DNA of 64,000 nt, from the NCBI GenBank assembly GCA_017449065.1, contig JAFSKF010000009.1:1-64000 (forward strand). The letters are read 5' to 3'. The position numbers were made by a program, and so were the translations under genes. Positions within the stretch are counted from its first letter, which is position 1, and each line of letters opens with the position of its first letter. Below the pieces are notes generated by a model. That model saw only the letters and a list, made by a program, of their open reading frames with translations, had not been told where the DNA came from and did not search any database. This document shows positions 25,875-40,093 of the stretch, one piece after another. Origin of the DNA: Bacteroidales bacterium. Lineage in GTDB: Bacteria > Bacteroidota > Bacteroidia > Bacteroidales > UBA3663.

Positions 25875-26669
25875 TTATGCTAAAAACGCAAGGAAGTTAT
25901 CCTTGATTTCCCTCAAATCATTGGGCAGGATAGCGTTGCACTTCCCGACAATCTCTTCAGGAATCGGATACATACATGAGGCGATGGCTCCAGCCATACA
26001 TCCAATGGTATCAGAATCTCCTCCTATCGAAACTGCCAAACGGACAACCTCTTCGAAAGAGTTACCTTCCAGAAAAGCAATGATAGCTTCTGGCACACTC
26101 CCCTGACAAGATACATCGAACGAATAACCCGGACGGATCTCATCGATGGTTCTATGGAGGTCATAACCGAACCGGCTTTCTACGAACTCCTTAATCTCCT
26201 GCTTGGATCTCCCCTCTTTGCAGAGGAAAACGCATGCAGCAATGGCTTGTGCGCCTTTGATGCCTTCCGGATGATTGTGACTGACGGAGGCCGTAACGCC
26301 TGCAAGCAACAAAGCCTCATCCAATGTTTTGGCATATAGCCCCACAGGGCTGACCCGCATGCCGGCACCATTGCCCCAACTGTTGTAAGGACGGGGATCC
26401 TCTTGAACCAGCCACCAATAGAAACGCCCGCCATACCCGGCATTCGGATACAATTGGCCAAGTTCCTGCATACATTTGATCAGGTGTTGCTCCGTGTGAT
26501 TTTCATCCTCCACCAGCCACTTAGCAACAGCCAAAGTCATTACAGAGTCATCTGTAAATGTGCTCCACGGAGTAAACAAATCGAAATCAGTTCGCTTCGT
26601 ATTACGGAACTCATATACTGAGCCGATAATATCGCCAACCAGCGCACCTAACATCGAACGATTCTTCAT
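25875..26669 (-). CDS. ADP-ribosylglycohydrolase family protein
   Basis: A 264-residue all-helical DraG/ARH-type protein that would remove ADP-ribose from a modified macromolecule or small ADP-ribosyl compound. Both metal-binding clusters are present: TDDSVMT (T39, D40, D41) and GGDSDT (D218, D220, T221), with the intervening HNHPEG motif. The length is normal. It starts 6 nt after a 52-residue gene and leads the TPR genes. Family assignment is secure. The substrate is unknown and no ADP-ribosyltransferase was identified with certainty nearby, although a truncated DUF3990 remnant lies 12 kb away. Confidence 0.93.
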   Translation of the reverse strand: MKNRSMLGALVGDIIGSVYEFRNTKRTDFDLFTPWSTFTDDSVMTLAVAKWLVEDENHTEQHLIKCMQELGQLYPNAGYGGRFYWWLVQEDPRPYNSWGNGAGMRVSPVGLYAKTLDEALLLAGVTASVSHNHPEGIKGAQAIAACVFLCKEGRSKQEIKEFVESRFGYDLHRTIDEIRPGYSFDVSCQGSVPEAIIAFLEGNSFEEVVRLAVSIGGDSDTIGCMAGAIASCMYPIPEEIVGKCNAILPNDLREIKDNFLAFLA

Positions 26670-26910: not shown

Positions 26911-26956
26911 TCTATCTCTGTTCATTGTACGAAGTCGTGGGTTTATTGTATGAAAT
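26911..26956. repeat. Partial copy (D) of the dispersed accessory-region repeat
   Basis: Bases 26923-26956 match the segment from ATTGTACGAAGTCGTGGG to ATGAAAT in the copies at 34510, 36825 and 39950; only the right-hand third is present. It lies just upstream of the ADP-ribosylglycohydrolase operon promoter. The remaining sequence to 27093 shows no gene. Confidence 0.8.
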
Positions 26957-27093: not shown

Positions 27094-27918
27094 TCATTTA
27101 TAAAATGTAATCCAGTTTGTCGTATATGGTATTTTCGTTTTGTGGATTTCATGAGCTACTCCCAAAGAATCTCTCCACCACGAATAGTTCCAACCCGGTC
27201 CCATATCCAGATAAAGGGCATATTTCACTCCGTATGCGAGCAATGCATCTCTGAATACGCCAAATGATTGCGAGGCACGAGAATCCGCAATACAGAGTTT
27301 CCCGTTTTTCTCGCAAAGGCAGCGGTATTCATTAACCGAAGTATCTTTAAATGGTTTCGATTTCACCTGTCCGTCGAAAATGACCATATACTGCACAAAG
27401 CCCATACCATCCTCAGCAGCTGCCTTTTTCAGAAGGTTAGCCTTATCGGAGACAGAAAATTTCCATCCACCTTTTGCCCAAGTCATTACACCTGCAGCAC
27501 CTTGACCACAACCGTCATACAAGACTCCGGCAGAAACATGAGGGCCACAGATATTCTTATGACTGAATGTATCAAGATACTGAGCCGTAAATGCAGCTTC
27601 GGCACAGAAGATAACATCATCATCTTCTATGGATGGCATCGTTCCACAGACAAGATCAATACGACTGAACTCCGGATAATATACCAAAAGATTCTCTGTA
27701 GTATCAATTCGCATGTTTGGGCATACAGATACGGCATTAGTAGCAGAAACAAGCGAATCTTCGAGGTCTGCTATCATCGCGAAGGCCTCTTCGTTGCTCC
27801 CCTCCTCTGATCCTCTTGTATCAGCATGACGGAACGCCATTAGCAATGCTAATAGTAAGATCGGTATGAGCGCCATTAGTAACACCGATGTTTTGGAAAT
27901 CTTTTGCATCTTATTCAT
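27094..27918 (-). CDS. Secreted phosphodiester-glycosidase (NAGPA)-like protein
   Basis: A 274-residue protein with an N-terminal membrane/signal segment (about 9-28) and a globular domain. The C-terminal pattern ALYLDMGPGWNYSWWRD and the earlier AEAAFTAQYLDTF and CGPHVSAGVLYDG resemble the N-acetylglucosamine-1-phosphodiester glycosidase (NAGPA) fold, where a conserved LDxG loop lies near the active site. The identification is from memory of the family pattern and is moderate. It follows the small basic gene by 43 nt, with a possible internal promoter between, so it may be only partly coupled to the kinase operon. A role in trimming an envelope glycan-phosphate is possible. Confidence 0.65.
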   Translation of the reverse strand: MNKMQKISKTSVLLMALIPILLLALLMAFRHADTRGSEEGSNEEAFAMIADLEDSLVSATNAVSVCPNMRIDTTENLLVYYPEFSRIDLVCGTMPSIEDDDVIFCAEAAFTAQYLDTFSHKNICGPHVSAGVLYDGCGQGAAGVMTWAKGGWKFSVSDKANLLKKAAAEDGMGFVQYMVIFDGQVKSKPFKDTSVNEYRCLCEKNGKLCIADSRASQSFGVFRDALLAYGVKYALYLDMGPGWNYSWWRDSLGVAHEIHKTKIPYTTNWITFYK

Positions 27919-27956: not shown

Positions 27957-27964
27957 CAAAACTA
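27957..27964 (-). promoter_or_regulatory. Possible internal -7 element before the phosphodiester-glycosidase-like gene
   Basis: TAGTTTTG matches TAnnTTTG on the minus strand, 39 nt upstream of the start at 27918, overlapping the stop of the preceding small gene. No clear -33 box. Confidence 0.4.
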
Positions 27965-28132
27965 TTTCCCGAAGATTGTCTTGAGAATAGTACTACCGAT
28001 CTTCCTTTCTAATCCTTGTTTACTCATAGGAATGCCTGTTTCTCTGGCAATTTTCTGTTTCGCCTTAGTAATTCCCAAGGCTCTCTTCCAAGAGAAAGAG
28101 AGACCTGGTATTGGATTCTGCTTTTTGCTCAT
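27962..28132 (-). CDS. Small basic protein with an FSWKRALGI motif
   Basis: A 56-residue protein from the internal ATG at 28132, 11 nt after the DUF4407 stop; the open frame extends to 28219 but that would overlap DUF4407. It is rich in Lys and Arg, with GLSFSWKRALGITKAKQKIA and KIARETGIPMSKQGLERKIG. Similar short basic proteins are common in Bacteroidetes accessory regions (from memory), without known function. Nucleic-acid binding is plausible from charge only. Confidence 0.7.
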   Translation of the reverse strand: MSKKQNPIPGLSFSWKRALGITKAKQKIARETGIPMSKQGLERKIGSTILKTIFGK

Positions 28133-28143
28133 AGATAATCTAA

Positions 28144-29541
28144 TTATGCTTTTTCTGTATTTGATTGAATATATGCGGAAGGATTCTCGTTTATCTTTCT
28201 CAGTTCCTCTTTTCTCCATTTTTCAATGGCTGTTTGAAGAAGTTCGGCTTGGACTTTGGCTATTTTTTCCATCAACAGATTATTGGCTTGTACTTCTGCT
28301 TCCAACTTCTTTTTATTCTTTTGGGTAGATATCTGAACTTCTGTATTAACAACATCATTGATGTCCGATTGTTTCTTTTCCGATAATACACGCACTTTAT
28401 GTGATTCAGCTGCCAAATAATCATCATATGGCCCAAATGTGAGCATCATTTTAAAAAGTGTCGGAATAACTTCTATTGAAATAAATAATAATGTAATAAA
28501 AAGCCTTGCAAAAAACAAAGTCAGATTTTCTGAAGGAGATGTAATTTTGTTTAATGCATTTATTTGAGCACTAAAACCAGTCAGCGCTTTCTGAGTTTCA
28601 TCTCCTGTTTTATCAATTTCATCAATCTTGTTCTCAACTACCTTTAATCTTCTATTATATTCTTCTATTTCTTTTTGAAGGCTGGCTTTTCTTTGTTTGA
28701 TATATTCTACATTATCTTTATTCTGCTGTTTTTCTTCCGCACGCAGATTATGAAGGTCACTCTGTAATCTTTCGACTTGGCTTTCTAACTGCTTAGCTGC
28801 TGGTCCATAGCCCCGAGTTTTTGTCGCTCCAGTTCCGTTTACTTCATAATATAACCTAAGTTCTGCGGCATTGAGTTCTTTTTCTTTATCTGCTACTCTA
28901 TCAGATATGCTATTATTTTTTCCAGCTCGCAAATCATTTATTTGATTATTTCTTGTTGCAATCTGGTCTTCTATGTCTTTGCGTTGTTGATAGAGAAAAT
29001 CATTAGCATTTCTAATTTCATCTCCAACCTTACTTTGATCAATTACTAACTGTGCTTTGATTTTATCCTGAAATATTCTTATTTCTATAGGTGTAGAGAT
29101 GACAATTCCCAAAAAGATTGCAAGAATTATTCGAGGGAGTCCGCCCCAAAATTCTGGCCTGCTAATTGTGTGCTTTCCATCAGAATACATAGTATTCACC
29201 ATAAACCTATCAAGATTAAATATCATTAATCCCCAGATAAGTGCAAATCCTATTGGTACGAATAATGGTGCTTCTTGGAAAACGAATGATATAGCATATC
29301 CTCCCGATAGTGCTGCCATAATTGCGGTAAAGAGTATTGTACCCCCAGTTCCTGCATACTTTGCATAATCAGAAGGACACTGTCTTAAAACTCTTCGGTT
29401 TACTCCAGCGCATATCCACAAGAATTCATTGATCCATCCACCCCATTTCACCTCTGGGTCTTTGGTCGTCAACGATTCTTCATATTCTGTTAATAACTTA
29501 TTTTCTACTACTTCCTGTATTTTTGAATCTTTTTCTTCCAT
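28144..29541 (-). CDS. DUF4407 membrane protein with long coiled coil
   Basis: A 465-residue protein. TM helices lie at about 66-86, 92-110 and 137-156, then a long coiled coil (about 160-330), a fourth TM at about 341-362 and a cytoplasmic helical tail. The segments KYAGTGGTILFTAIMAALSG and MIFNLDRFMV fit the DUF4407 pattern. Its start lies 44 nt inside the preceding zinc-finger gene, an unusually long overlap that ties their translation. In this operon it may anchor or transduce the kinase/phosphatase signal at the inner membrane; that role is inference. Confidence 0.85.
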   Translation of the reverse strand: MEEKDSKIQEVVENKLLTEYEESLTTKDPEVKWGGWINEFLWICAGVNRRVLRQCPSDYAKYAGTGGTILFTAIMAALSGGYAISFVFQEAPLFVPIGFALIWGLMIFNLDRFMVNTMYSDGKHTISRPEFWGGLPRIILAIFLGIVISTPIEIRIFQDKIKAQLVIDQSKVGDEIRNANDFLYQQRKDIEDQIATRNNQINDLRAGKNNSISDRVADKEKELNAAELRLYYEVNGTGATKTRGYGPAAKQLESQVERLQSDLHNLRAEEKQQNKDNVEYIKQRKASLQKEIEEYNRRLKVVENKIDEIDKTGDETQKALTGFSAQINALNKITSPSENLTLFFARLFITLLFISIEVIPTLFKMMLTFGPYDDYLAAESHKVRVLSEKKQSDINDVVNTEVQISTQKNKKKLEAEVQANNLLMEKIAKVQAELLQTAIEKWRKEELRKINENPSAYIQSNTEKA

Positions 29542-30580
29542 TGCTATTTCCTTTTAAATGACTAAATAGTTTTTTGATTGAACTCTTTAAGCTGAAACGT
29601 CGAAGTGGTGGTGAAAGTTCCACATTTAATCCCAGATCCTTGAATGATGGAACCTTGGGAACTTCTGTTTTTACAAATTCTATTGATATATTGGGAAAAA
29701 ATAACGATACATTATATTGTGGCTGTTTTATTGTTATTGACAATTTATTTGCAATATTTGGAGCTGGCACAAATAGCGACTTAACAAGAGGAATTGGCAA
29801 CATTTGGATTTCTACCCTCTTCTCCTTGGTCCCGAATTCATCTTCAGCCGACAAAACATAAGTCATATTCTTTTCTGGTTCTACGACCTTTTTGCCGGAA
29901 GAAGGCTCCTCCTCTTGATCCAGCCAAACCTTTTTGGCATTCTTGACATTCCACGAAAGCAGAACAGGAACAGTCGGAAAGATATAGTTCTTATCAGCAT
30001 TGAACTCTATTTCGCATTCGTCAAAGACACCAATTTGCAATTCTTCTGTAAAGGTGGTTACATCATCCAAAGCGATGTACTCAATAATATAGGATGTAGT
30101 CTCATTGGGACAAACTTCCAATTTTCCAGAAGAAGGAATCTCTTCCCGATTATCGCCTACAATTAAATATACTTTACTTGTTTTTTCAGTTTTCCAAGTT
30201 AACAATGAATTTTCTTTCTTCCCTCTTTTTAATTTTGATTTACTAGAAGAAAATTCTATTGTAGGACGCTCTATGAAGTCCAATTCAAAACTAACCGTTC
30301 TGGTTGTAGTATCCGAATTCGATAAAAAGAAAATCACATCCTGTTCGTCTGGATTCTCTAAGCTATAAGATTCTTTTCCTGTAACGTCTGAAGTTTCTCC
30401 TTTATAACAAAAAGATACTTTATCACAGAACTCCGTTTTCCACCTTAATACAATTGGTTTGCCGCACAGAACCCTATCGTACGAGAAATCAATAATCTTT
30501 GGAGCATGCGTTTCACATACTTCACAAACATCCAAAATATCAGGATTCTCCGTTTCGCAGTTTTTGCATATCCAACTCAT
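29498..30580 (-). CDS. RanBP2-type zinc finger plus Ig-like repeat protein
   Basis: A 360-residue protein. Residues 3-22 fit the RanBP2 zinc-finger consensus exactly (W3, C5, C8, N12, C19, C22). Then come three similar beta-sandwich-like segments of about 85 residues, each with a central Trp (LRWKTEF, LTWKTEK, LSWNVKN) and a YxL/YxI strand near the end, resembling tandem Ig-like domains. A basic Pro-rich tail follows. No signal peptide, so it is cytoplasmic. It is 5 nt from the DUF2971 gene. TerY-P kinases commonly carry a zinc ribbon; here the kinase has none and this separate protein may substitute (inference). Confidence 0.72.
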   Translation of the reverse strand: MSWICKNCETENPDILDVCEVCETHAPKIIDFSYDRVLCGKPIVLRWKTEFCDKVSFCYKGETSDVTGKESYSLENPDEQDVIFFLSNSDTTTRTVSFELDFIERPTIEFSSSKSKLKRGKKENSLLTWKTEKTSKVYLIVGDNREEIPSSGKLEVCPNETTSYIIEYIALDDVTTFTEELQIGVFDECEIEFNADKNYIFPTVPVLLSWNVKNAKKVWLDQEEEPSSGKKVVEPEKNMTYVLSAEDEFGTKEKRVEIQMLPIPLVKSLFVPAPNIANKLSITIKQPQYNVSLFFPNISIEFVKTEVPKVPSFKDLGLNVELSPPLRRFSLKSSIKKLFSHLKGNSNGRKRFKNTGSSRK

Positions 30581-30585
30581 AGGTC

Positions 30586-31350
30586 CTATATGGAAAAAGG
30601 TTCAAACTCAATATTAAATGGACGACATACTTTTGTTTTTCTGACAGGGATACCTAAGTTTCTTGCGACCTCACCAATATAGCAATATCTGTCTTTGAGA
30701 AAATTGTGACCAATAATAATTCCTTTAATTGCACCTTGGGGGATTGGAATTTTGTATCCTCCCGTTTCATATTTAACTTTAGGATTCGCTCGATCTATTA
30801 TATCTTTCCCTGTAATCAACCTCCTTTCACATTCTTTTTCCCATACAATATTTTTATAGGAACATAAATGGGTAAATAGTTTATCCATCGTCTTAAAATC
30901 TTGCAAACAATCCTCAAGTTTTATGGTTTGAATCTTCCCATCATATGCCCTATAATTAAAAGTATAGTTCATATCATCCAAATTGGGACATTCTTCCTTA
31001 TACACAACTTTTTGATAAGATACTCTAGCTGATAATTCATTAGTTATACTTTCAAATGTATCATCCTCAAATTCGACAACAAAACCACTATAATTATCAG
31101 CATATAATGCCCACATAACTTTATTGTCACATTCTTCACAAAAAGAACATGTCCCATAACTTTCCATAGTTTCTTTAGCGTTCGGCACTATTATGGGGTC
31201 AATAAATTTCAAAAATTGAGGAGATTGTATCAAGTCAAATGAAGCATCATAAGGGTCATTTAGTTTTGACACTTTGCAGAAATAAAAATAATTTTCCGAT
31301 AATGCTTCAAAATTATACGATTGAGGCGAATAGTATTTATATACTTTCAT
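30586..31350 (-). CDS. DUF2971-family protein
   Basis: A 254-residue cytoplasmic protein. MKVYKYYSPQSYNFEALSEN at the N-terminus and VMWALYADNYSGFVVEF in the middle match the DUF2971 pattern, and a cysteine cluster CSFCEEC precedes the latter. The C-terminal IPQGAIKGIIIGHNF is also typical. The family has no settled biochemical role but recurs in accessory and defence loci. Gaps of 5 nt on each side place it firmly in the kinase operon. Confidence 0.8.
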   Translation of the reverse strand: MKVYKYYSPQSYNFEALSENYFYFCKVSKLNDPYDASFDLIQSPQFLKFIDPIIVPNAKETMESYGTCSFCEECDNKVMWALYADNYSGFVVEFEDDTFESITNELSARVSYQKVVYKEECPNLDDMNYTFNYRAYDGKIQTIKLEDCLQDFKTMDKLFTHLCSYKNIVWEKECERRLITGKDIIDRANPKVKYETGGYKIPIPQGAIKGIIIGHNFLKDRYCYIGEVARNLGIPVRKTKVCRPFNIEFEPFSI

Positions 31351-31355
31351 ATAAT

Positions 31356-32408
31356 CTATTTTTTATTGATTTTCCATGTTTTACTACGTAATATTGTTGT
31401 TTGAGGAGTATCAATTATTTCATCAGGAATTGTCTCTTTGACAATAAGAGTACCTCGCAATCCTGCCTCTGACGAACAAATTGTTGTAGTAGCACTAAGA
31501 AGATCTTCTCCTTTAAAATTTTTTAATATGTCAAAGACCTCACGAATTGTTGGCCTATTTTCAGGTCGAGAATTTAACATTTTTCTAATTAAGGCGTCTA
31601 ACCCCGATGGAATATGTTTTGCAAATGAAAAAGATTTGCAATTTTCAACACAATTCCAAGTACTACTATACCCGTCTTCAAGTATTGTTTTTTTTCCTGT
31701 AAAGTACTCACACAAAATAATACCCAATGTAAAGATATCGGATTTTAGAGTAAGAATACTACCCGAGATTTCTTCATCTTCATCCATAATATAGGCTGCC
31801 TGTTCTGGAGAATAATACTCTGGTGTTCCAACAAGGCTTTCGCGGTCTGTTGGTGGATTGCCGCTAAAATAGCTATCATCAAAGTCTATCAGTTTTCCCG
31901 AGTAGCCAGAAGGCGTTTTTTTTATAAGAATATTATCAGGCTTTAAATCTCCATGAACAATATTTAGGTCATGTAAAATTCGAATACTATGGCAAACAGA
32001 TTTTGCAATGAGCAGAATCTTTTCAAAAGGCAGACGAGAGATTTCCTCACAGGTAAGCGATGCCGTGTCTATCTTTTCAGTCACTTTATAATAACAAGTA
32101 CCACTACGGAAGAAATCCACCGCAAAAACGAGGTTACCTCCCAAAGAAACTTTTGTTGCAATTTTCTTATTGAGTTCTTTGTGATGCTTTTCAAATACTT
32201 CGCAAGCTTTGCGTCTTTGTTCCTTCACTTTCTCGCTGCCAGGGCTGTCTGGTAAAGGATATTTGGGAGAAAGAAATTCTTTGATAAAATATTCCTTCCC
32301 GCCCTTCTTTGCAAAAGTCACCTTACTCATGCCTCCAGCCACCTCAAAATCTTTTAAGATTGTATAGCCATTGATCACGTTACCTTCAAGCATTGGCATT
32401 GTTGTCAT
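31356..32408 (-). CDS. Ser/Thr protein kinase of a TerY-P-like triad
   Basis: A 350-residue Hanks-type kinase. The VAIK lysine is K43 in YFIKEF, the catalytic loop is HGDLKPDN (D154, K156, N159), and the Mg-binding motif is DFD (D176), followed by GTPEYYSPEQ as the activation/APE segment. The glycine loop is degenerate (EVAGGMSKVTFAK). The C-terminal 60 residues are Thr/Ser rich and may be autophosphorylated; no zinc ribbon or TM helix is present. The start overlaps the PP2C stop by 23 nt with alternative in-frame ATGs at 32399 and 32393. Confidence 0.93.
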   Translation of the reverse strand: MTTMPMLEGNVINGYTILKDFEVAGGMSKVTFAKKGGKEYFIKEFLSPKYPLPDSPGSEKVKEQRRKACEVFEKHHKELNKKIATKVSLGGNLVFAVDFFRSGTCYYKVTEKIDTASLTCEEISRLPFEKILLIAKSVCHSIRILHDLNIVHGDLKPDNILIKKTPSGYSGKLIDFDDSYFSGNPPTDRESLVGTPEYYSPEQAAYIMDEDEEISGSILTLKSDIFTLGIILCEYFTGKKTILEDGYSSTWNCVENCKSFSFAKHIPSGLDALIRKMLNSRPENRPTIREVFDILKNFKGEDLLSATTTICSSEAGLRGTLIVKETIPDEIIDTPQTTILRSKTWKINKK

Positions 32409-33423
32409 CGTTTATAAATTTCAGATACTTCTGCTTGTAACTCTCCCAGCCACTTTTAGCGATTTGTTCGTATTCGCGTTGCATCTTAGTCAGTTTCTGC
32501 TTTTGACTGGTAATATTAGACTCCAAATCTCGAAGTTTGCCAACAACTGAAACAGATTGCAATGCCATAATATTTTTAAACTTTCCAAATGACTCAAAGC
32601 CAATGCCAATCAAAGCCAAGGACGTATCGTCACCTGTCACTTCTTGAATACTCTGCATAAGCAGTTTCTTCCATTCTTCTTCATCGTTAGCTTTTTTCAG
32701 ACACCGTTTAAGCATATCCTCAAAGTGCATTGGCGTGGGGAGATAGCCGAAACAGCCATCTGTTGCACTTATTATTATGACAGGCTCTTTTGAAAGGTCA
32801 ATTTGCTTGTGATTAATTCGGAAATCACGATCCGCACAAATACAATTTGATACAGCAGCATCATTGTGCAAATTCTCCATAGGATCATTATCTTCTTCTA
32901 AATCATCCTTGCTAATCTGGTAGAATCCGTTCCTCGTCCACAAGTAGCAATGTGAGTCACCTGCCCAGTAACTATCAACTTTATAACTATTATCTTTTTC
33001 GTAAAGAGTTACAATTGCCATAGTTGTTGGATATTCACGAATAAGCCTGCTTCGTAACGAGGATATTGCCTTTGGGGCGAACTTCTCTTTTTCTTCAGAT
33101 AATGTTCTTTTTATAATTGCTTTCATTTCTTCTATATCGATATCCTCTGCGGGAAGACAGTTCTGAAGGAATTTATCCATGGAAGAACAAACTATTCTAG
33201 AAGAGACATAGGCCTGGGTATGTCCGACGCCCAAAGAGGATGATTCGCAAATCGTTGCACCGGCTCCACCCATTCCATCAAACACTCCAACTGCAAAAGA
33301 GTCTCTTTTTTGAATGAGAAGAGGTGGGGCATCTTCCCCATGCCTCGCCTCCTTCTCAATCATAAAAGAAACGGATATGACATCTATGCTTTTCACGTCC
33401 TCAGCTTTAAACAGATTTGACAA
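32386..33423 (-). CDS. PP2C-type protein phosphatase of the triad
   Basis: A 345-residue metal-dependent phosphatase with FDGMGG (D49), WAGDS (D156), SATDG (D222) and GDDTS (D265, D266), so the two-metal centre is complete. After residue 290 comes a coiled-coil tail (about 296-325). The likely start is TTG at 33423, 17 nt inside the vWA gene; no ATG is better placed. It would reverse phosphorylation by the adjacent kinase, with the vWA protein as partner. Confidence 0.92.
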   Translation of the reverse strand: MSNLFKAEDVKSIDVISVSFMIEKEARHGEDAPPLLIQKRDSFAVGVFDGMGGAGATICESSSLGVGHTQAYVSSRIVCSSMDKFLQNCLPAEDIDIEEMKAIIKRTLSEEKEKFAPKAISSLRSRLIREYPTTMAIVTLYEKDNSYKVDSYWAGDSHCYLWTRNGFYQISKDDLEEDNDPMENLHNDAAVSNCICADRDFRINHKQIDLSKEPVIIISATDGCFGYLPTPMHFEDMLKRCLKKANDEEEWKKLLMQSIQEVTGDDTSLALIGIGFESFGKFKNIMALQSVSVVGKLRDLESNITSQKQKLTKMQREYEQIAKSGWESYKQKYLKFINDDNNANA

Positions 33424-34090
33424 TAGCGGACATTATTGTTTCATAATCGACCTCAGTCAATCCCATACCTGATCTTGCAGGATGGTGAATAGTATTATCC
33501 CAATTCAGTCCAATTTCCGTCCAAGCACTAGCATCCGGTGCAAATACGATTAACCTCTCCGCATTGAAATCCATTCTTCCACCTTGTCTAAGATTCCACC
33601 AATCTGTTAGTTCGTTAAAATCACTTGGCATATCCTGAGGATAAAAGTCATTCATACACCTATCTAATCTCAAAGGATGAGTTGAAGCATCTGACCAGAC
33701 AACCACGACATGCCTTCTTTTATCACCACCTGTAGTCCAATCAGAATTAATAGCCATTGCCAAAGCTTCCAAACCATTCTCTGGCTCATCACCCCCACCA
33801 GTCGGCTGAAGTCCGTTTACAAAACTCTTGAATTCTGATTCTTGGGCTGGAATATTGATGAATCCAGAATCTTGAATAGCATTTGCGCCATCTGCATAAA
33901 AATCACGGAATCCTATAACTCGAATGCGAAGCTCAGAGATTTCTTTACCCTTAGCATCACATCTTGCTTTCAAATCTGGATAAAACTTTAATGCGTTAGT
34001 TTTTACTGTATCCAACAAATCACCCATACTACCTGTACAATCTATACACATTACAATGTCAACGTTGTACTTTAATCCTTGTCCTGGCAT
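33407..34090 (-). CDS. TerY-like von Willebrand factor A protein
   Basis: A 227-residue stand-alone vWA domain. The MIDAS motif is D17-C-T19-G-S21 in IVMCIDCTGSM, with the further T/D residues in PTGGGDEPENG and the VVVVWSDAS strand. It matches the TerY-type vWA found with PP2C and kinase. It is the first gene of the operon, about 340 nt downstream of a strong promoter, with a hairpin only 17 nt before its start codon. The metal ion and protein partner are unknown. Confidence 0.9.
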   Translation of the reverse strand: MPGQGLKYNVDIVMCIDCTGSMGDLLDTVKTNALKFYPDLKARCDAKGKEISELRIRVIGFRDFYADGANAIQDSGFINIPAQESEFKSFVNGLQPTGGGDEPENGLEALAMAINSDWTTGGDKRRHVVVVWSDASTHPLRLDRCMNDFYPQDMPSDFNELTDWWNLRQGGRMDFNAERLIVFAPDASAWTEIGLNWDNTIHHPARSGMGLTEVDYETIMSAIVKSV

Positions 34091-34142: not shown

Positions 34143-34264
34143 GTTTATATATACAAACAAAGAACGTGGAGCCTATCTGTCACTCGCTCCACGCTCTAAA
34201 GGCTCTCGCATTGCCCAGTTTGTCGAAACGAGCAACGTGAAAGCCCCACGAAAATGTATATATC
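34143..34264 (-). ncRNA. Candidate structured leader RNA of the vWA-PP2C-kinase operon
   Basis: A segment of about 120 nt in the 5' leader is closed by ATATATAC (34147-34154) pairing with GTATATAT (34256-34263). Inside are a strong hairpin at 34161-34197 (8 perfect pairs CGTGGAGC/GCTCCACG, extended by AGA/TCT over a G-U), a two-part hairpin at 34209-34237 (CATTGC/GCAACG and GTTT/AAAC) and a small one at 34236-34250. On the transcript the strong hairpin is followed by a U-rich stretch, so it could act as an attenuator. No known riboswitch class is recognised. Confidence 0.55.
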
Positions 34265-34435
34265 AAATCCGTATCTTCTGCCTACCTTTATGAGTAGAGA
34301 CAAGATAAGGAAATGTATAAGCATTCCAAGGGACGTTCCCATTGCTTTGTTTTTGACAAACTGTTCGAACGTGCGAGATTCTTAGAGCGTCAAAGCCAAA
34401 GCGTCCAGAAAACGCCTATGTCTGTATGTTCGCCG

Positions 34436-34509: not shown

Positions 34510-34632
34510 AAATAAAGTCGTGAAGGATGCAATGCAATCCATCAGACAGGTTGCAAAGATACACTATTAATCTGAGAAACGGAAGGCACATCTGCTTCCA
34601 TTGTACGAAGTCGTGGGGTTATTGTATGAAAT
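34510..34632. repeat. Dispersed repeat copy A
   Basis: This 123-nt copy differs from copy B (36825-36947) at only about three positions. It includes GTTGCAAAGATACACTA, which carries a minus-strand -7 element TATCTTTG. Copies A and B flank the DUF4276/AAA gene pair in direct orientation. Confidence 0.92.
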
Positions 34633-34776: not shown

Positions 34777-35457
34777 TTAGCTATTCCGAACCTTTTCGCA
34801 GAAAGTTTTCAGTTCACGGTCTTTAAATATTAAATCGCTTGGATTCAGATGTGCAATGATACCGGGAGCATGGCGCAACTTGCCATATTTCAAGTCGCGC
34901 ACCTTTCCTGATGCACTCTTTTTCACTTTTTCTTGTGGAGCAAATACCTGTCGCAGAATCACACCCATCAAAAACGATGCTTTCTGCTGCAAGTGCTCAA
35001 TATCCTTGCCTTTGATAGAAGGATGATTGGCCAATGGATAATCTTGCCTGGGTTTGCGTGTCAGATTTTCATCCTCGGCCCATTGCTCTATAGCTTCTGG
35101 TTGTTTCAGGAACCATGCTTCCATCTCCTGAATCCAGAAACTTACGTGATCTGTCTTGTCCTTTGGCATCTTAATTCCATCGTCAGACAGGCTCTTGAAC
35201 CAATCGTTTCTCAACTCCGGCTTACGGTCAAGATCTACATACAGATAGTTTTCCTCATTTCCCGTTGCATTGATGAACTGTTTTGCGGCTTCTTTATAAC
35301 TGGAGCATTTCTTCACTACAATGCTGATGTCATCACGATTTAGTGCCCGTTGCATAAAGCGATTCAGTTCCTCTCGCAGAGCCTCCGAATTATTGTTCGT
35401 TGTGGCATCAACATTTCCATTGATAACACCACCCTCCACATATACATTGACTACCAT
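34777..35457 (-). CDS. DUF4276-like TOPRIM-type protein paired with an ATPase
   Basis: A 226-residue protein. The N-terminal strand VYVEGG (E8), the later YLYVDLD (D75, D77) and FWIQEMEAWFL (E111, E113) fit the DUF4276 pattern, a TOPRIM-like nuclease family often encoded beside SMC/AAA ATPases. It overlaps the ATPase stop by 7 nt. By analogy with ATPase-TOPRIM defence pairs such as OLD and PARIS it may be the effector nuclease; activity is not shown. Confidence 0.72.
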   Translation of the reverse strand: MVVNVYVEGGVINGNVDATTNNNSEALREELNRFMQRALNRDDISIVVKKCSSYKEAAKQFINATGNEENYLYVDLDRKPELRNDWFKSLSDDGIKMPKDKTDHVSFWIQEMEAWFLKQPEAIEQWAEDENLTRKPRQDYPLANHPSIKGKDIEHLQQKASFLMGVILRQVFAPQEKVKKSASGKVRDLKYGKLRHAPGIIAHLNPSDLIFKDRELKTFCEKVRNS

Positions 35458-36653
35458 CTTTTACCGCCAATCTCGCCGTTCAACCATAACTGACCTGGGA
35501 GCAGATCTCCCTCGCGATTTTCAAAATCATCTTCGCTGTAACGCGTGATTTGCGTTTCGTTCATGCCGTTCTTTTCGAATACCAATATATCATCGAGTTC
35601 AAAGGCATTCAACAAAAGAGCCGAATGGGTTGCTACAATAATCTGTGATGACTTTGCGGCACTCTTCATCATCTTTGCTACAGAACGAATCATATCCGGA
35701 TGCAGACACGATTCAGGTTCATCTATGTCAATAAGTGCGCCTCTATTTGGATTATGAAAGATGCTCAACAAAAGCAAATACTTCAATGTGCCATCTGAGA
35801 TATGGAGCGCATCTATGGCATGCGACAGATTTTTCTCACGAAGGGAGAGATACAATCTGCTGCCAAAAACATTATAACCGATTCCTGTAAAATTCGGATT
35901 TATATCGCTCAAACATTCTATTATTTTCTCATACTGGAACGTATAGTTGTTATTCAGGTTGCTCAACAACTGACTTAGGTTCTCTCCTGTGCTTATCAAT
36001 CGTTTAATATCATTGGCTTCAGCAGGCTGACGTACTTTGTCAAAATTAAACTTTGAATATCCGGCAATTGCATTGATGGCCTCTCTTACAACAAAAGACG
36101 GCAGATATCTCTGTGGATCGGTAATCTGCCTGAGCACCAATTCCTGCGCAGACAGCATACCGCTTTCATATTTTTCTACTTCTATACCGCTTTTGGTGCG
36201 AACCGAAATTTGGCCGATGCCATTACGGAATTCAAGATAACTGAATGTTTTTTTCTTTCCACTGCTATCTTCTGAATAAAGCGTTTCACAAAGGGAGTAA
36301 CTTGTGCCATCGCCAATAGGGAATACCGTTATCTTGTAATAAACATCTTTCTTAAAGGGAGAGGTGGGAACACGTTTCCTCAAAACATCGGCATCGAAAA
36401 CGTAGGTTATACTAAAACAATCCGGCTTTTGTTCACCGCACGCATTAACAATTGCATTGTATGTGCCCCACTGCCGAAACAATGCCGACAAACCGCCACC
36501 CGCAATGCCCTCATAAAGCATGGTGATGGCATTCAGAAAGGAAGTCTTGCCACTTCCATTAACACCTACAAGGATATTAACCCCTGTATTCAATTGAATT
36601 GTGTGCTCTCCTTTAAAGGAAAAGAAGTCACGGATAATTAGTTCTTTTATCAT
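35451..36653 (-). CDS. AAA/ABC-type ATPase (OLD/RecF-like)
   Basis: A 400-residue cytoplasmic ATPase with Walker A GVNGSGKTSF (K36), a signature-like HISDGTLKYLLLL, Walker B GALIDIDEPESCLHP and the H-loop ATHS. The N-terminal IKELIIRDFFSFKGEHTI is typical of AAA_15/AAA_21 proteins that sense DNA or phage components. It forms an overlapping two-gene unit with the DUF4276 protein and has its own -7 element upstream. The flanking direct repeats suggest that the pair is a movable cassette. Confidence 0.88.
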   Translation of the reverse strand: MIKELIIRDFFSFKGEHTIQLNTGVNILVGVNGSGKTSFLNAITMLYEGIAGGGLSALFRQWGTYNAIVNACGEQKPDCFSITYVFDADVLRKRVPTSPFKKDVYYKITVFPIGDGTSYSLCETLYSEDSSGKKKTFSYLEFRNGIGQISVRTKSGIEVEKYESGMLSAQELVLRQITDPQRYLPSFVVREAINAIAGYSKFNFDKVRQPAEANDIKRLISTGENLSQLLSNLNNNYTFQYEKIIECLSDINPNFTGIGYNVFGSRLYLSLREKNLSHAIDALHISDGTLKYLLLLSIFHNPNRGALIDIDEPESCLHPDMIRSVAKMMKSAAKSSQIIVATHSALLLNAFELDDILVFEKNGMNETQITRYSEDDFENREGDLLPGQLWLNGEIGGKRW

Positions 36654-36824: not shown

Positions 36825-37000
36825 AAATAAAGTCGTGAAGGATGCAATGCAATCCATCAGACAGGTTGCAAAGATACACTATTTATCTGAGAAACGGAAG
36901 GCACATCTGCTCCCATTGTACGAAGTCGTGGGTTTATTGTATGAAATGCCGAACAGAAATCTTACAAATTTTCCAAAATCATACAAATTCAGGAAGAAGC
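36825..37000. repeat. Dispersed repeat copy B (longest copy)
   Basis: The first 123 nt match copy A; the segment from 36854 to about 37000 matches copy C at 39950-40093, including ATCTTACAAATTTTCCAAAA. Together A, B and C define a unit of about 175 nt, of which B is the most complete. On the plus strand the copies keep an open frame with residues LYEVVGLLYEMP, but without a consistent start. Confidence 0.9.
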
Positions 37001-37076: not shown

Positions 37077-37118
37077 CTTTTTTGCTGCCCTACAGGGGAA
37101 AATTTGCTGCCCAGTTGG
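37077..37118. repeat. GCTGCCC direct repeat, copy 1
   Basis: Contains TTTGCTGCCC twice, separated by a short CTACAGGGG/AAAA spacer, and matches 37956-37998 almost base for base. The two copies bracket the toxin-antitoxin pair. Confidence 0.9.
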
Positions 37119-37155
37119 AGAGGGCACTCAAAATTTGGTTCTTTTTTTACATTTT

Positions 37156-37187
37156 CTTGTTTTATTTGATTATTTGTCGTATCTTTG
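37156..37187 (+). promoter_or_regulatory. Toxin-antitoxin promoter
   Basis: CTTG, 20 nt, TATCTTTG on the plus strand; the -7 element is perfect and the -33 has one mismatch. The start codon lies 22 nt downstream, so the leader is very short. Confidence 0.7.
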
Positions 37188-37208
37188 CGGCGAAAAAAAC
37201 ATTGGCAT

Positions 37209-37475
37209 ATGAATACAACATTGTCGTTAGAGAATATTCTCCACATGTTAAGTGGTTTGAGCCTCAGCAATCGTCAGTGGCTGGCTGAACATTTGGTAGC
37301 TCCTGAAGAATTGGAGCGAGCCAAACAGCGCAAGAGTGACGAGGAGTTTGTGCATGAGTTTTTAGCAATGCCCCGGGGCAATGATATGTCCGCTGAAGAA
37401 ATGAAGAAATTGTTGCGAGAAAGCCATCATTACGGTCTTCGTGAGATAAATTACAAATATGCAAATGAAGAATAA
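37209..37475 (+). CDS. Probable antitoxin of a PIN-domain toxin-antitoxin pair
   Basis: An 88-residue protein with helical N-terminal LENILHMLSGLSLSNRQWLAEHL and a charged C-terminal half (AEEMKKLLRESHHYG). The ATG at 37209 is preferred over 37185 because the latter overlaps the promoter. It overlaps the toxin start by 17 nt. Small size, charge pattern and position upstream of a PIN toxin support the role; no classical VapB DNA-binding fold is recognised. Confidence 0.75.
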   Translation: MNTTLSLENILHMLSGLSLSNRQWLAEHLVAPEELERAKQRKSDEEFVHEFLAMPRGNDMSAEEMKKLLRESHHYGLREINYKYANEE

Positions 37476-37887
37476 AAAATACCTTCTTGACACTAATATT
37501 CTCATAGAATTCATGTGGGGAACACCTACCATTGTAAGCAAGATTATTCAAACTGGTTTTGATAAATGTTGCATATCTACAATATCCTTGCATGAGCTTT
37601 ATTATGGCGCCTACAATGCCAAGAAGAAGAGCGAGAGATGCTTTCGGGAAGAAATAGCTCGTATAGAAAAGCTCCTTACAAAACTTACTGTTCTACCTCT
37701 TGGCACGAATGGCGAAATTTATGGTAATATCAAATATAGTCTCGAGAAGAAAGGGCTGATTATTGACGAGTTCGATATGGTCATTGCAAGTCATGCAATC
37801 AGCGAAGGTCTAACCGTTGTTACAGACAACCTCAAACATTTTAGCCGCATAGAAGGGTTGAAAGTTGAGAACTGGATGGAGCATTAA
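37459..37887 (+). CDS. VapC-like PIN-domain toxin (RNase)
   Basis: A 142-residue PIN domain. The acidic active-site residues are visible: D11 in LLDTNILIEF, Glu in STISLHELYYGA, Asp in IDEFDMVIASHA and TDN in VVTDNLKHF. PIN toxins cleave tRNA or mRNA when free of antitoxin. The start could also be the ATG 6 nt further on. Confidence 0.92.
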   Translation: MQMKNKKYLLDTNILIEFMWGTPTIVSKIIQTGFDKCCISTISLHELYYGAYNAKKKSERCFREEIARIEKLLTKLTVLPLGTNGEIYGNIKYSLEKKGLIIDEFDMVIASHAISEGLTVVTDNLKHFSRIEGLKVENWMEH

Positions 37888-37955: not shown

Positions 37956-37998
37956 CTTTTTTTGCTGCCCTACAGGGAAAAATTTGCTGCCCAGTTGG
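37956..37998. repeat. GCTGCCC direct repeat, copy 2
   Basis: Second copy of the 37077-37118 repeat, located 69 nt after the toxin stop. Unlike copy 1 its right half also pairs with an inverted arm at 38013-38028 to form a terminator-like hairpin. Confidence 0.9.
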
Positions 37999-38028
37999 GG
38001 AACAAACTTTCTCCAACTGGGCAGCAAA
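37983..38028 (-). terminator. Terminator-like hairpin between toxin and DUF3791 cassette
   Basis: A 16-bp perfect stem (TTTGCTGCCCAGTTGG / CCAACTGGGCAGCAAA) with a 14-nt loop. On the minus strand the stem is followed by TTTTT, so it probably ends the leftward transcript of the 38072-38662 genes. Confidence 0.75.
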
Positions 38029-38820: not shown

Positions 38821-39939
38821 TTATTCTGCAGATAGAATACTTGCCCATTCCATGAGTATGGAAGAAGCCGCCTGTTCTATAGGATGATTGAAACTCGCAC
38901 TCTCTTCGTTCAACTTTTCTACGGTCTTAATCCATTCATCGAGGATAGGGCGAAGTTCTTTTGCGGCTGCCTGAGCCTCATGCTCTTTTTCATAGAAAGA
39001 GCTGTTGGGGTCTCTTTCTTCATATTCCCGATAATAATGCTCTATCATAGAAATAGTTTCCTTTAACGAAGTTTCATAGCTGTCAAAAAAGAATCGCTTG
39101 GCTTTTCTCAGATATGCTCCGGTCTTGTCTCCTTCTTCTCCCGACATAAGACCGAGAACCTTTTGGTACATGGACACGCGAGCCTTCACCAACAGATATT
39201 CTCTTTCCGAACTCTTCATCCCAGAGATAGAGCCTCCCCAGTATTTCATATCGGTCAAATCGTCGAAGATTACTCTGACCTTTTTAAGCATCTGTTCATA
39301 TAGTTGCCATTCCCGATAAACAAGGTTCTTGGCGTTTTCATCCTTACACTTGCTTACCATCTCATTCAGCAACCCATATTCCCTGCATCTGTCGAAAGAA
39401 TAGTTTACACTGTAGAAAACGCTCATGCCGTATGTACTTCCGAAATTGCCTCCCCGTTCCATCAGCCTCAGCCCTTGATTCAACACGGAGTCGGACTTCG
39501 CATAATCGGATATGGAACCGCTTCCGAGAGCATGGGAATCATAATAAACCGACAAATCATGCCTGTAGTTAGACATCCATCGCTCTTCTCTCCTAACTGT
39601 TGCCGGGAAGCTCTCGCTTTGCACATGCAGAAAGAGCCTATCCAACAGAACAAAAAGTTCGGAATTCTCTGAAAATGCTTTATTTTCAATCAGGTGTACA
39701 AGACTATTTTGAAACGATATCGAATCCAAAGAATACAAGTAGTCACCTTGCCTGATGGTAACAGACTTACTATCATCGGGTTTCTCAACAGTCATGCTGT
39801 CCGTCTTAGCAGAAGTCGTACTGTCGGCTGTCTTTACTGCTGTCGTACTCTTGTCAGTTTTCTCTGGGGTAGTATTGCCAGTATTGCTTCCGCAACCCAC
39901 CAGGCAAAAAACGATTGAAATAAAAAATAACTTTTTCAT
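38821..39939 (-). CDS. Lipoprotein of unknown function
   Basis: A 372-residue protein. The start at 39939 gives a clear lipoprotein signal with the lipobox LVGC, followed by a Thr/Lys/Ser linker to about residue 55. The rest is helical and rich in Arg, Glu and Tyr without a recognised domain. The longer opening to 39972 lies inside repeat copy C. The -7 element within that copy may drive it. Confidence 0.8.
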   Translation of the reverse strand: MKKLFFISIVFCLVGCGSNTGNTTPEKTDKSTTAVKTADSTTSAKTDSMTVEKPDDSKSVTIRQGDYLYSLDSISFQNSLVHLIENKAFSENSELFVLLDRLFLHVQSESFPATVRREERWMSNYRHDLSVYYDSHALGSGSISDYAKSDSVLNQGLRLMERGGNFGSTYGMSVFYSVNYSFDRCREYGLLNEMVSKCKDENAKNLVYREWQLYEQMLKKVRVIFDDLTDMKYWGGSISGMKSSEREYLLVKARVSMYQKVLGLMSGEEGDKTGAYLRKAKRFFFDSYETSLKETISMIEHYYREYEERDPNSSFYEKEHEAQAAAKELRPILDEWIKTVEKLNEESASFNHPIEQAASSILMEWASILSAE

Positions 39940-39949
39940 ATATACTCTA

Positions 39950-40093
39950 TCATACAGGTTGCAAAGATACACTATTTATTTGAGAAACGGAAAGAATATC
40001 TGCTCCCATTGTACGAAGTTGTGGGTTTATTGTACGAAATGCCAGACAGAAATCTTACAAATTTTCCAAAATCATACAAATTCGGGAAGAAGC
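39950..40093. repeat. Dispersed repeat copy C
   Basis: About 144 nt matching 36854-37000 of copy B with scattered substitutions; the left 30 nt of B are absent. A minus-strand TATCTTTG (39962-39969) lies 23 nt upstream of the lipoprotein start, so the repeat may supply its promoter. Confidence 0.88.

Follow-up and report, generated by a model that had tools for sequence, protein, structure and literature searches.

Known Systems and the Locus under Study

The TerY-P triad, in which a von Willebrand factor type A (vWA) protein, a PP2C phosphatase and a Ser/Thr kinase are encoded together, has been proposed to act in phospho-signalling (Anantharaman 2012, as cited in passages of PMC11090510 and PMC7699616). 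According to the same passages, which here refer to Gao 2020, stand-alone TerY-P modules whose kinase is modified give protection from phage. In Sulfolobus, ArnA binds the vWA protein ArnB through its RanBP2-type zinc finger, and the kinase ArnC drives the transition of the complex from loose to tight (PMC12852372, PMC6509490); the ArnA-ArnB pair controls motility under starvation (PMC6509490). Some of the GTPase-centric GAP1-N2 conflict systems of actinobacteria also have a neighbouring kinase, PP2C and stand-alone vWA (PMC7159879). Here we describe an operon of a rumen Bacteroidales bacterium (assembly GCA_017449065.1, contig JAFSKF010000009.1), located within the first 64,000 nucleotides of the contig, which we call the window. 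A first-pass annotation of the window saw in it a TerY-P-like set without Ter genes. This reading is borne out, and the set proves to be a family of its own: a vWA-PP2C-kinase-zinc-finger family present in at least five phyla, blurred by TerY-P annotation and missed by defence databases.

Structure and Origin of the Operon

The source assembly consists of 55 contigs and is 86.8% complete, and its open reading frames (ORFs) were called mechanically. The operon has seven genes, listed here in the direction of transcription. Loci of the comparison are cited by our own numbers (L).

33407-34090, minus strand: vWA protein of the VWA_4 type, 227 aa (Pfam VWA_4, 1.2e-8), with relatives in 73 loci
32386-33423, minus strand: PP2C phosphatase, 345 aa, TTG start as called (Pfam PP2C_2, 3.3e-8)
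31356-32408, minus strand: Hanks-type kinase without zinc ribbon, 350 aa (Pfam Pkinase, 2e-25), in its own clade
30586-31350, minus strand: DUF2971 protein in a variable slot, 254 aa (Pfam, 1.2e-8; PADLOC PDC-S31, 7.8e-24)
29498-30580, minus strand: protein with RanBP2-type zinc finger and Ig-like repeats, the fourth core gene, 360 aa (motif, alignment, conserved position)
28144-29541, minus strand: DUF4407 membrane/coiled-coil protein, 465 aa (Pfam, 1.3e-70; alignment; all-helical model)
27962-28132, minus strand: small basic protein with corrected start, 56 aa, conserved as 3′-terminal gene in L009-L013 and L015

All seven ORFs lie where the first-pass annotation had placed them, except for the start of the last one. 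Its relatives align from the internal ATG at 28132, not from 28219, and therefore the reported overlap with DUF4407 disappears. The active-site motifs, which had been called complete, are present but atypical: the metal ion-dependent adhesion site of the vWA protein starts with DCTGS, and the kinase has HGDLKPDN, DFD where DFG is expected, and no classical glycine-rich loop. The PP2C has its metal-site motifs and is 37% identical to the Herpetosiphon copy.

The guanine-cytosine (GC) content of the operon is 36.4%, versus 49.2% in the outer parts of the window, and its zinc-finger gene was not found in 14 genomes of the same genus. For these reasons we consider the operon an accessory unit, which was probably acquired horizontally.

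The Triad Family across Phyla

Scanning 84,980 genomes with an alignment of the vWA protein gave 73 loci. Together with the plasmid loci, these hold the complete triad in 46 further cases (47 counting the window), a number that is a lower bound because the scan relied on short conserved peptides. The gene order is vWA-PP2C-kinase in 38 of the 46 and vWA-kinase-PP2C in 8. The bearers belong to Bacteroidota, Chloroflexota, Cyanobacteriota, Bacillota and Actinomycetota, with a few metagenome-assembled genomes labelled otherwise, whose labels may be wrong, as probably in L015. On a Chloroflexota plasmid the gene order vWA, PP2C, kinase is that of the window, with identities of 52, 37 and 40%, and a cyanobacterial plasmid also has a relative. 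Pairwise distances of the three proteins correlate across the 47 loci (Mantel r 0.86-0.93), and none of 999 permutations reached values as high. The vWA, PP2C and kinase are thus a coherent, co-diverging family beyond chance association.

How far does this family stand from TerY-P? Genuine TerY-P loci of Bacteroidia have TerD-like genes, TerY and TerY_C; their PP2C is extended at the N terminus, and their kinase has a cysteine-rich (C4) segment at its C terminus. TerY matches PF00092 and TerY_C, whereas the vWA of the window is of the VWA_4 type; TerY_C was not found in the source genome. Profiles of the triad vWA and PP2C show a weak, fold-level relation to their TerY-P counterparts. The triad kinases form one clade of their own with support 98/91, and the TerY-P kinases sit on a branch of length 3.86. 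TerD is absent from the 64 kb and from the whole incomplete source assembly, which agrees with the reported lack of Ter genes, although TerC was not searched for. Constant company of TerC/TerD genes had been named as grounds for refuting the first-pass reading, and TerD does not always go with the triad: 26 of 40 triad genomes have none, despite a TerD a few kb from the triad in two Clostridia (L046, L047) and another about 7 kb downstream in L018. On the features tested, membership of the triad family in TerY-P is rejected; the likeness of working remains.

A phage origin of the triad was considered and rejected, as viral contigs do not have the triad vWA and phages have no relative of the zinc-finger protein.

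Several loci depart from the common pattern. One Lachnospiraceae contig (L045:5188-13329) has seven related vWA genes, and no PP2C or kinase within the available stretch of the contig. In Cytophagales (L019, L020, L021, L053) there is a close vWA relative (52-55% identity) with no adjoining PP2C or kinase, and three of these four loci have the same neighbours. The contig of L015 is labelled Treponema, and its promoter, leader RNA and proteins are of Bacteroidales type; it is probably misbinned or reflects a recent transfer.

The Zinc-Finger Gene and the Distal Genes

The kinase was noted earlier to lack a zinc ribbon, with a finger present instead in a separate Ig-like protein. This observation can be extended to the whole triad family: no triad kinase has a zinc-finger motif, and the displaced zinc ribbon is therefore a family character. 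In 31 of the 38 vWA-PP2C-kinase loci, as well as in the window and L012, the gene of a separate protein with a C4 finger at its N terminus lies no more than about 1 kb 3′ of the kinase. The Pfam score of the window finger is 14.4 bits, below the 27-bit cut-off, and its residues 3-22 match the consensus W-x-C-x2-C-x3-N-x6-C-x2-C exactly. Fingers are of the RanBP2 type in most Bacteroidota, Chloroflexota and some Bacillota, and the cyanobacterial ones are without the consensus W and N. The rest of the protein differs between lineages, with Ig-like repeats in Bacteroidota, Sel1 repeats in L011, L012 and L014, one hydrophobic segment in L006 and L024, and other variants elsewhere.

The DUF4407 gene directly follows the finger gene in the window, L009, L010, L013, L015, L017 and L032, and stands one gene further in L016. 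The expectation that the non-triad genes are conserved beside the triad held for the zinc finger, across phyla, and for DUF4407 and the small basic protein, within Bacteroidota or Bacteroidales, but failed for DUF2971.

The Variable Slot and Neighbouring Genes

Among the triad loci compared, DUF2971 stands beside a triad only in the window. The same slot between kinase and finger gene is taken by a 133-aa protein with a RHALAH motif in L009 and L012, by an ADP-ribosylglycohydrolase (3.3e-30) in L010 and by a membrane protein in L011, and is empty in L013-L017 and L032. Genes of defence type are found at other positions: AbiGi (1.4e-22) after DUF4407 in L009, a TIR gene (3.1e-11) upstream of the triad in L016, and a dCTPase-type defence deaminase (1.4e-152) upstream of the triad in L026. 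This pattern fits a slot gene that serves as exchangeable output, and DUF2971 as a putative effector would be compatible with such a slot. Relatives of DUF2971 occur in IMG/VR contigs and on plasmids, one of them lying between small genes that, in our own reading, resemble integron cassettes. Its conserved motifs raised the idea of an ADP-ribosyltransferase. We rejected it, as the structure model had no significant match in the PDB; its two weak matches to proteins of the ADP-ribosyltransferase fold, 8s2n and 7yw4, had a probability of 0.11 and 0.14. A sequence search of the PDB with DUF2971 gave no match.

The neighbouring operon on the upstream side also has a defence-like content.

34777-36653, minus strand: AAA ATPase and DUF4276 pair, HEC-01A/B-like (Pfam, PADLOC), with an operator copy upstream

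Further on, a PIN-domain toxin with its presumed antitoxin (37185-37887) is flanked by a 44-nt direct repeat whose copies (37078-37121 and 37958-38001) are 95% identical. On the other side, between the operon and the next operator, a 274-aa protein (27094-27918, minus strand) has no Pfam or PADLOC match.

Operator and Promoter

Upstream of the operon lies a direct repeat with a 21-bp period, followed by a promoter element. Copies of this operator stand also before other operons of the window.

34603-34631, minus strand: operator TTTCATACAATAACCCCACGACTTCGTAC, direct repeat with 21-bp period, presumed LytTR site (exact genome matches)
34554-34561, minus strand: Bacteroidetes-type -7 box TATCTTTG, 70 bp past the operator start, with the same spacing at other sites
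36918-36946, minus strand: second operator copy (exact match), before the AAA/DUF4276 pair
40011-40039, minus strand: third operator copy (exact match), before the gene ending at 38821
26927-26955, minus strand: fourth operator copy (exact match), before an ADP-ribosylglycohydrolase unit (25875-26669)

Over the whole genome the pattern TTTCRTAC-N13-YTTCRTAC gave five exact matches. Four precede adjacent operons of the window, each on the minus strand and each with the operator 69-70 bp ahead of a -7 box. The fifth (G000:C4:35746, plus strand), outside the window, precedes a LytTR gene (PF04397). In three other genomes of the genus the operator also stands before a LytTR-like gene, identified by sequence likeness, and close variants are found ahead of the triad leader in L009, L011 and L012. 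A LytTR protein is the presumed regulator that would bind the operator.

The repeats of this region were considered as recombination sites and the idea was dropped. Because they contain promoter and operator and precede each minus-strand operon, shared control explains them; they may have been duplicated by recombination.

Another operator-promoter is located 13-14 bp past the 56-aa basic ORF in L009, L011 and L012. In L009 and L012 a LytTR gene comes next, and therefore this end of the island may be an insertion hot spot.

Leader RNA

Between the promoter and the vWA gene there is a structured RNA.

34152-34432, minus strand: structured leader RNA, about 280 nt long, with modelled core 34189-34394 and, at its end, a hairpin before a U-rich stretch

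L009-L012 and L014 have a conserved copy of the leader, L013 a partial one at the end of its contig, and L015 a divergent one. Of the Bacteroidales-type loci examined, seven have enough upstream sequence, and in each of them the leader stands ahead of the triad. Its fold is more stable than expected in three species (z of -6.42 in the window, -8.7 and -6.8). An alignment of 53 copies has 94.7% of its pair cells paired and double-sided changes in 37 of 41 pairs; it scores 0.656 for covariation, versus 0.193 for shuffled and at most 0.116 for slid alignments. Because it was fitted to the covariance model, these figures lean towards the model. The first alignment, of seven sequences and without such fitting, had double changes in 19 of 63 predicted pairs. 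With Rfam 15 the window copy gave only chance-level matches (E up to 5), and the leader was unmatched in 20 copy-bearing loci. It is thus an RNA family with strong support that is missing from Rfam.

We rejected the view of the leader as a triad-specific part when the covariance model found copies ahead of unrelated genes. It is present in 21 of 149 relatives, with up to eight copies per genome and five in the source genome (copies beyond the window: L118-L157, L197-L216). Of 39 copies, 33 have a -7 box no further than 140 nt ahead of the modelled core. An automated terminator finder, whose criteria were too strict, accepted none of the 39, and terminators were judged by eye at a few loci. The genes that follow include DISARM drmD (8.8e-200), a PLD-SNF2 helicase in the source genome (7.7e-121), a C5 methyltransferase, a methyltransferase/restriction-like set (L205, by sequence only), a PDC-S31/DUF2971-like gene, and many genes of secreted proteins or lipoproteins. 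As copies precede many accessory operons of Bacteroidales, the leader is probably cis-regulatory, a shared cis-acting leader being the simplest reading. The operon had been described as self-contained. For its regulation this does not hold, since the operator is common to three neighbouring operons and the leader RNA to unrelated ones.

There is nearly an even chance that the leader represents an undescribed class of Bacteroidales cis-regulatory RNA, sometimes under LytTR control, which governs scattered accessory operons including unrelated immunity systems (the phospho-switch proposed below, DISARM drmD, the PLD-SNF2 helicase, methyltransferase/restriction-type genes, DUF2971). If so, one RNA-level switch would serve a mixed repertoire of defence and surface functions in such Bacteroidales. 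As a common 5′ element ahead of unrelated immune operons, the leader makes it possible to test how gut and rumen Bacteroidales regulate defence.

Two observations belong here. About 9 kb beyond the window a second kinase operon (L118, G000:C3:66500-73700) stands behind a leader copy; it has two kinases, a zinc-ribbon protein and a protein that is FHA-like by sequence. In L104 a leader copy is followed, about 50 nt on, by a DUF805b RNA (RF02914; 1414-1448, minus strand).

Possible Mechanism and Alternatives

What is established comprises the family with its core of four genes and its variable slot, the structure of the RNA, and the set of operators. On this basis we propose, tentatively and at somewhat less than even chances for the whole chain, a horizontally acquired, inducible vWA/zinc-finger phospho-switch that works like ArnA-ArnB and has exchangeable output genes. 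A LytTR-family regulator encoded elsewhere in the genome would control the operon through the operator of 21-bp period. The transcript would first cross the leader RNA, whose terminator-like end probably controls how far transcription reads on into the genes. The switch complex would consist of the vWA protein and the RanBP2 zinc-finger/Ig-like protein, by the example of ArnB and ArnA; the kinase may tighten or loosen the complex through Ser/Thr phosphorylation and the PP2C may reset it, as the enzyme classes and their co-divergence suggest. DUF4407 would tie the complex to the membrane, and the slot gene, here DUF2971, would be the output, most likely an effector of abortive infection or stress response. 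This scheme is supported by co-conservation and co-divergence of the triad, the separate finger gene in 31 of 38 loci and the kinase clade apart from TerY-P, and also by the slot and neighbour genes, the operator before LytTR genes, the covariation of the leader and the ArnA-ArnB precedent. An anti-phage function is plausible.

A number of results weigh against the phospho-switch with defence output. Many loci of cyanobacteria, Chloroflexota and Clostridia have the core genes only, with no evident effector, and most loci outside Bacteroidota show no gene of the exchangeable-output kind. The triad vWA was not found in viral contigs. Neither the AlphaFold model of DUF2971 (predicted local distance difference test score, pLDDT, 83.5) nor that of DUF4407 (mean pLDDT 78; predicted template modelling score 0.43) had a significant match, to the PDB and to solved folds respectively. 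Pfam gave no FHA match in the operon proteins, the zinc-finger protein having Ig-like repeats instead, and the window vWA has no ArnB-like beta-sandwich or helical-bundle part. On the core genes PADLOC gave generic kinase matches only and left vWA and PP2C unmatched; yet it missed a genuine TerY-P control as well, and its silence was rejected as an argument against defence.

The main rival, a realistic possibility that we hold well short of even, is a switch for stress or nutrients without a role in defence, in which the four core proteins sense an internal or envelope state and govern ordinary functions of the cell, and slot genes such as DUF2971 or AbiGi are hitch-hikers of an accessory island. 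In L018, L023 and most cyanobacteria the core four indeed stand alone, in or near housekeeping genes, ArnA-ArnB itself governs motility under starvation (PMC6509490), and the leader also precedes lipoprotein and secreted-protein operons. Against such a role stand the low GC and sporadic presence of the operon, the HEC-01-like pair behind the same operator and the recurrent Abi, TIR and deaminase neighbours. That the operon is a plain TerY-P tellurite/stress member that lost its Ter genes is improbable. It shares the three enzyme classes, and in L046 and L047 a TerD gene is a few kb away from the triad, but the vWA is VWA_4 and not of TerY type, the kinase is without zinc ribbon and in a separate clade, and TerD is missing from 26 of 40 triad genomes. 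Still less credible is a trans-acting leader that belongs to the system and is bound by the RanBP2 finger. Such fingers can bind RNA (a statement cited within PMC6509490), the 3′ hairpin is terminator-like, and the RNA precedes 7/7 Bacteroidales-type triads with enough upstream sequence; however, many leader-bearing operons have no zinc-finger gene, and triads outside Bacteroidales have no leader.

Comparison with Known Systems

The leader resembles the DUF805b leader RNA of Bacteroidetes (Rfam RF02914) in being a short cis-regulatory RNA, and differs from it in sequence and structure. The GAP1-N2 systems are GTPase-centric, whereas no GTPase was recognised in the window operon. TerY-P, like the operon studied here, encodes vWA, PP2C and Ser/Thr kinase together, with a proposed role in phospho-signalling and with variable partners. 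However, it has a TerY-type vWA and a kinase with zinc ribbon (or OB fold), in place of the VWA_4 protein and separate zinc-finger protein of the window; the triad kinases have their own clade, and most triad genomes are without TerD. The ArnA-ArnB-ArnC archaellum switch shares with the window a RanBP2 zinc-finger protein, a vWA protein and a Ser/Thr kinase. It serves archaeal motility, and ArnA has an FHA domain and ArnB additional beta-sandwich and helical-bundle domains, unlike the window proteins. Only an analogy of parts is meant by this likeness, which would extend to the phosphorylation-driven complex proposed for the window. For the vWA and zinc-finger proteins of the family, ArnA-ArnB provides a structural precedent.

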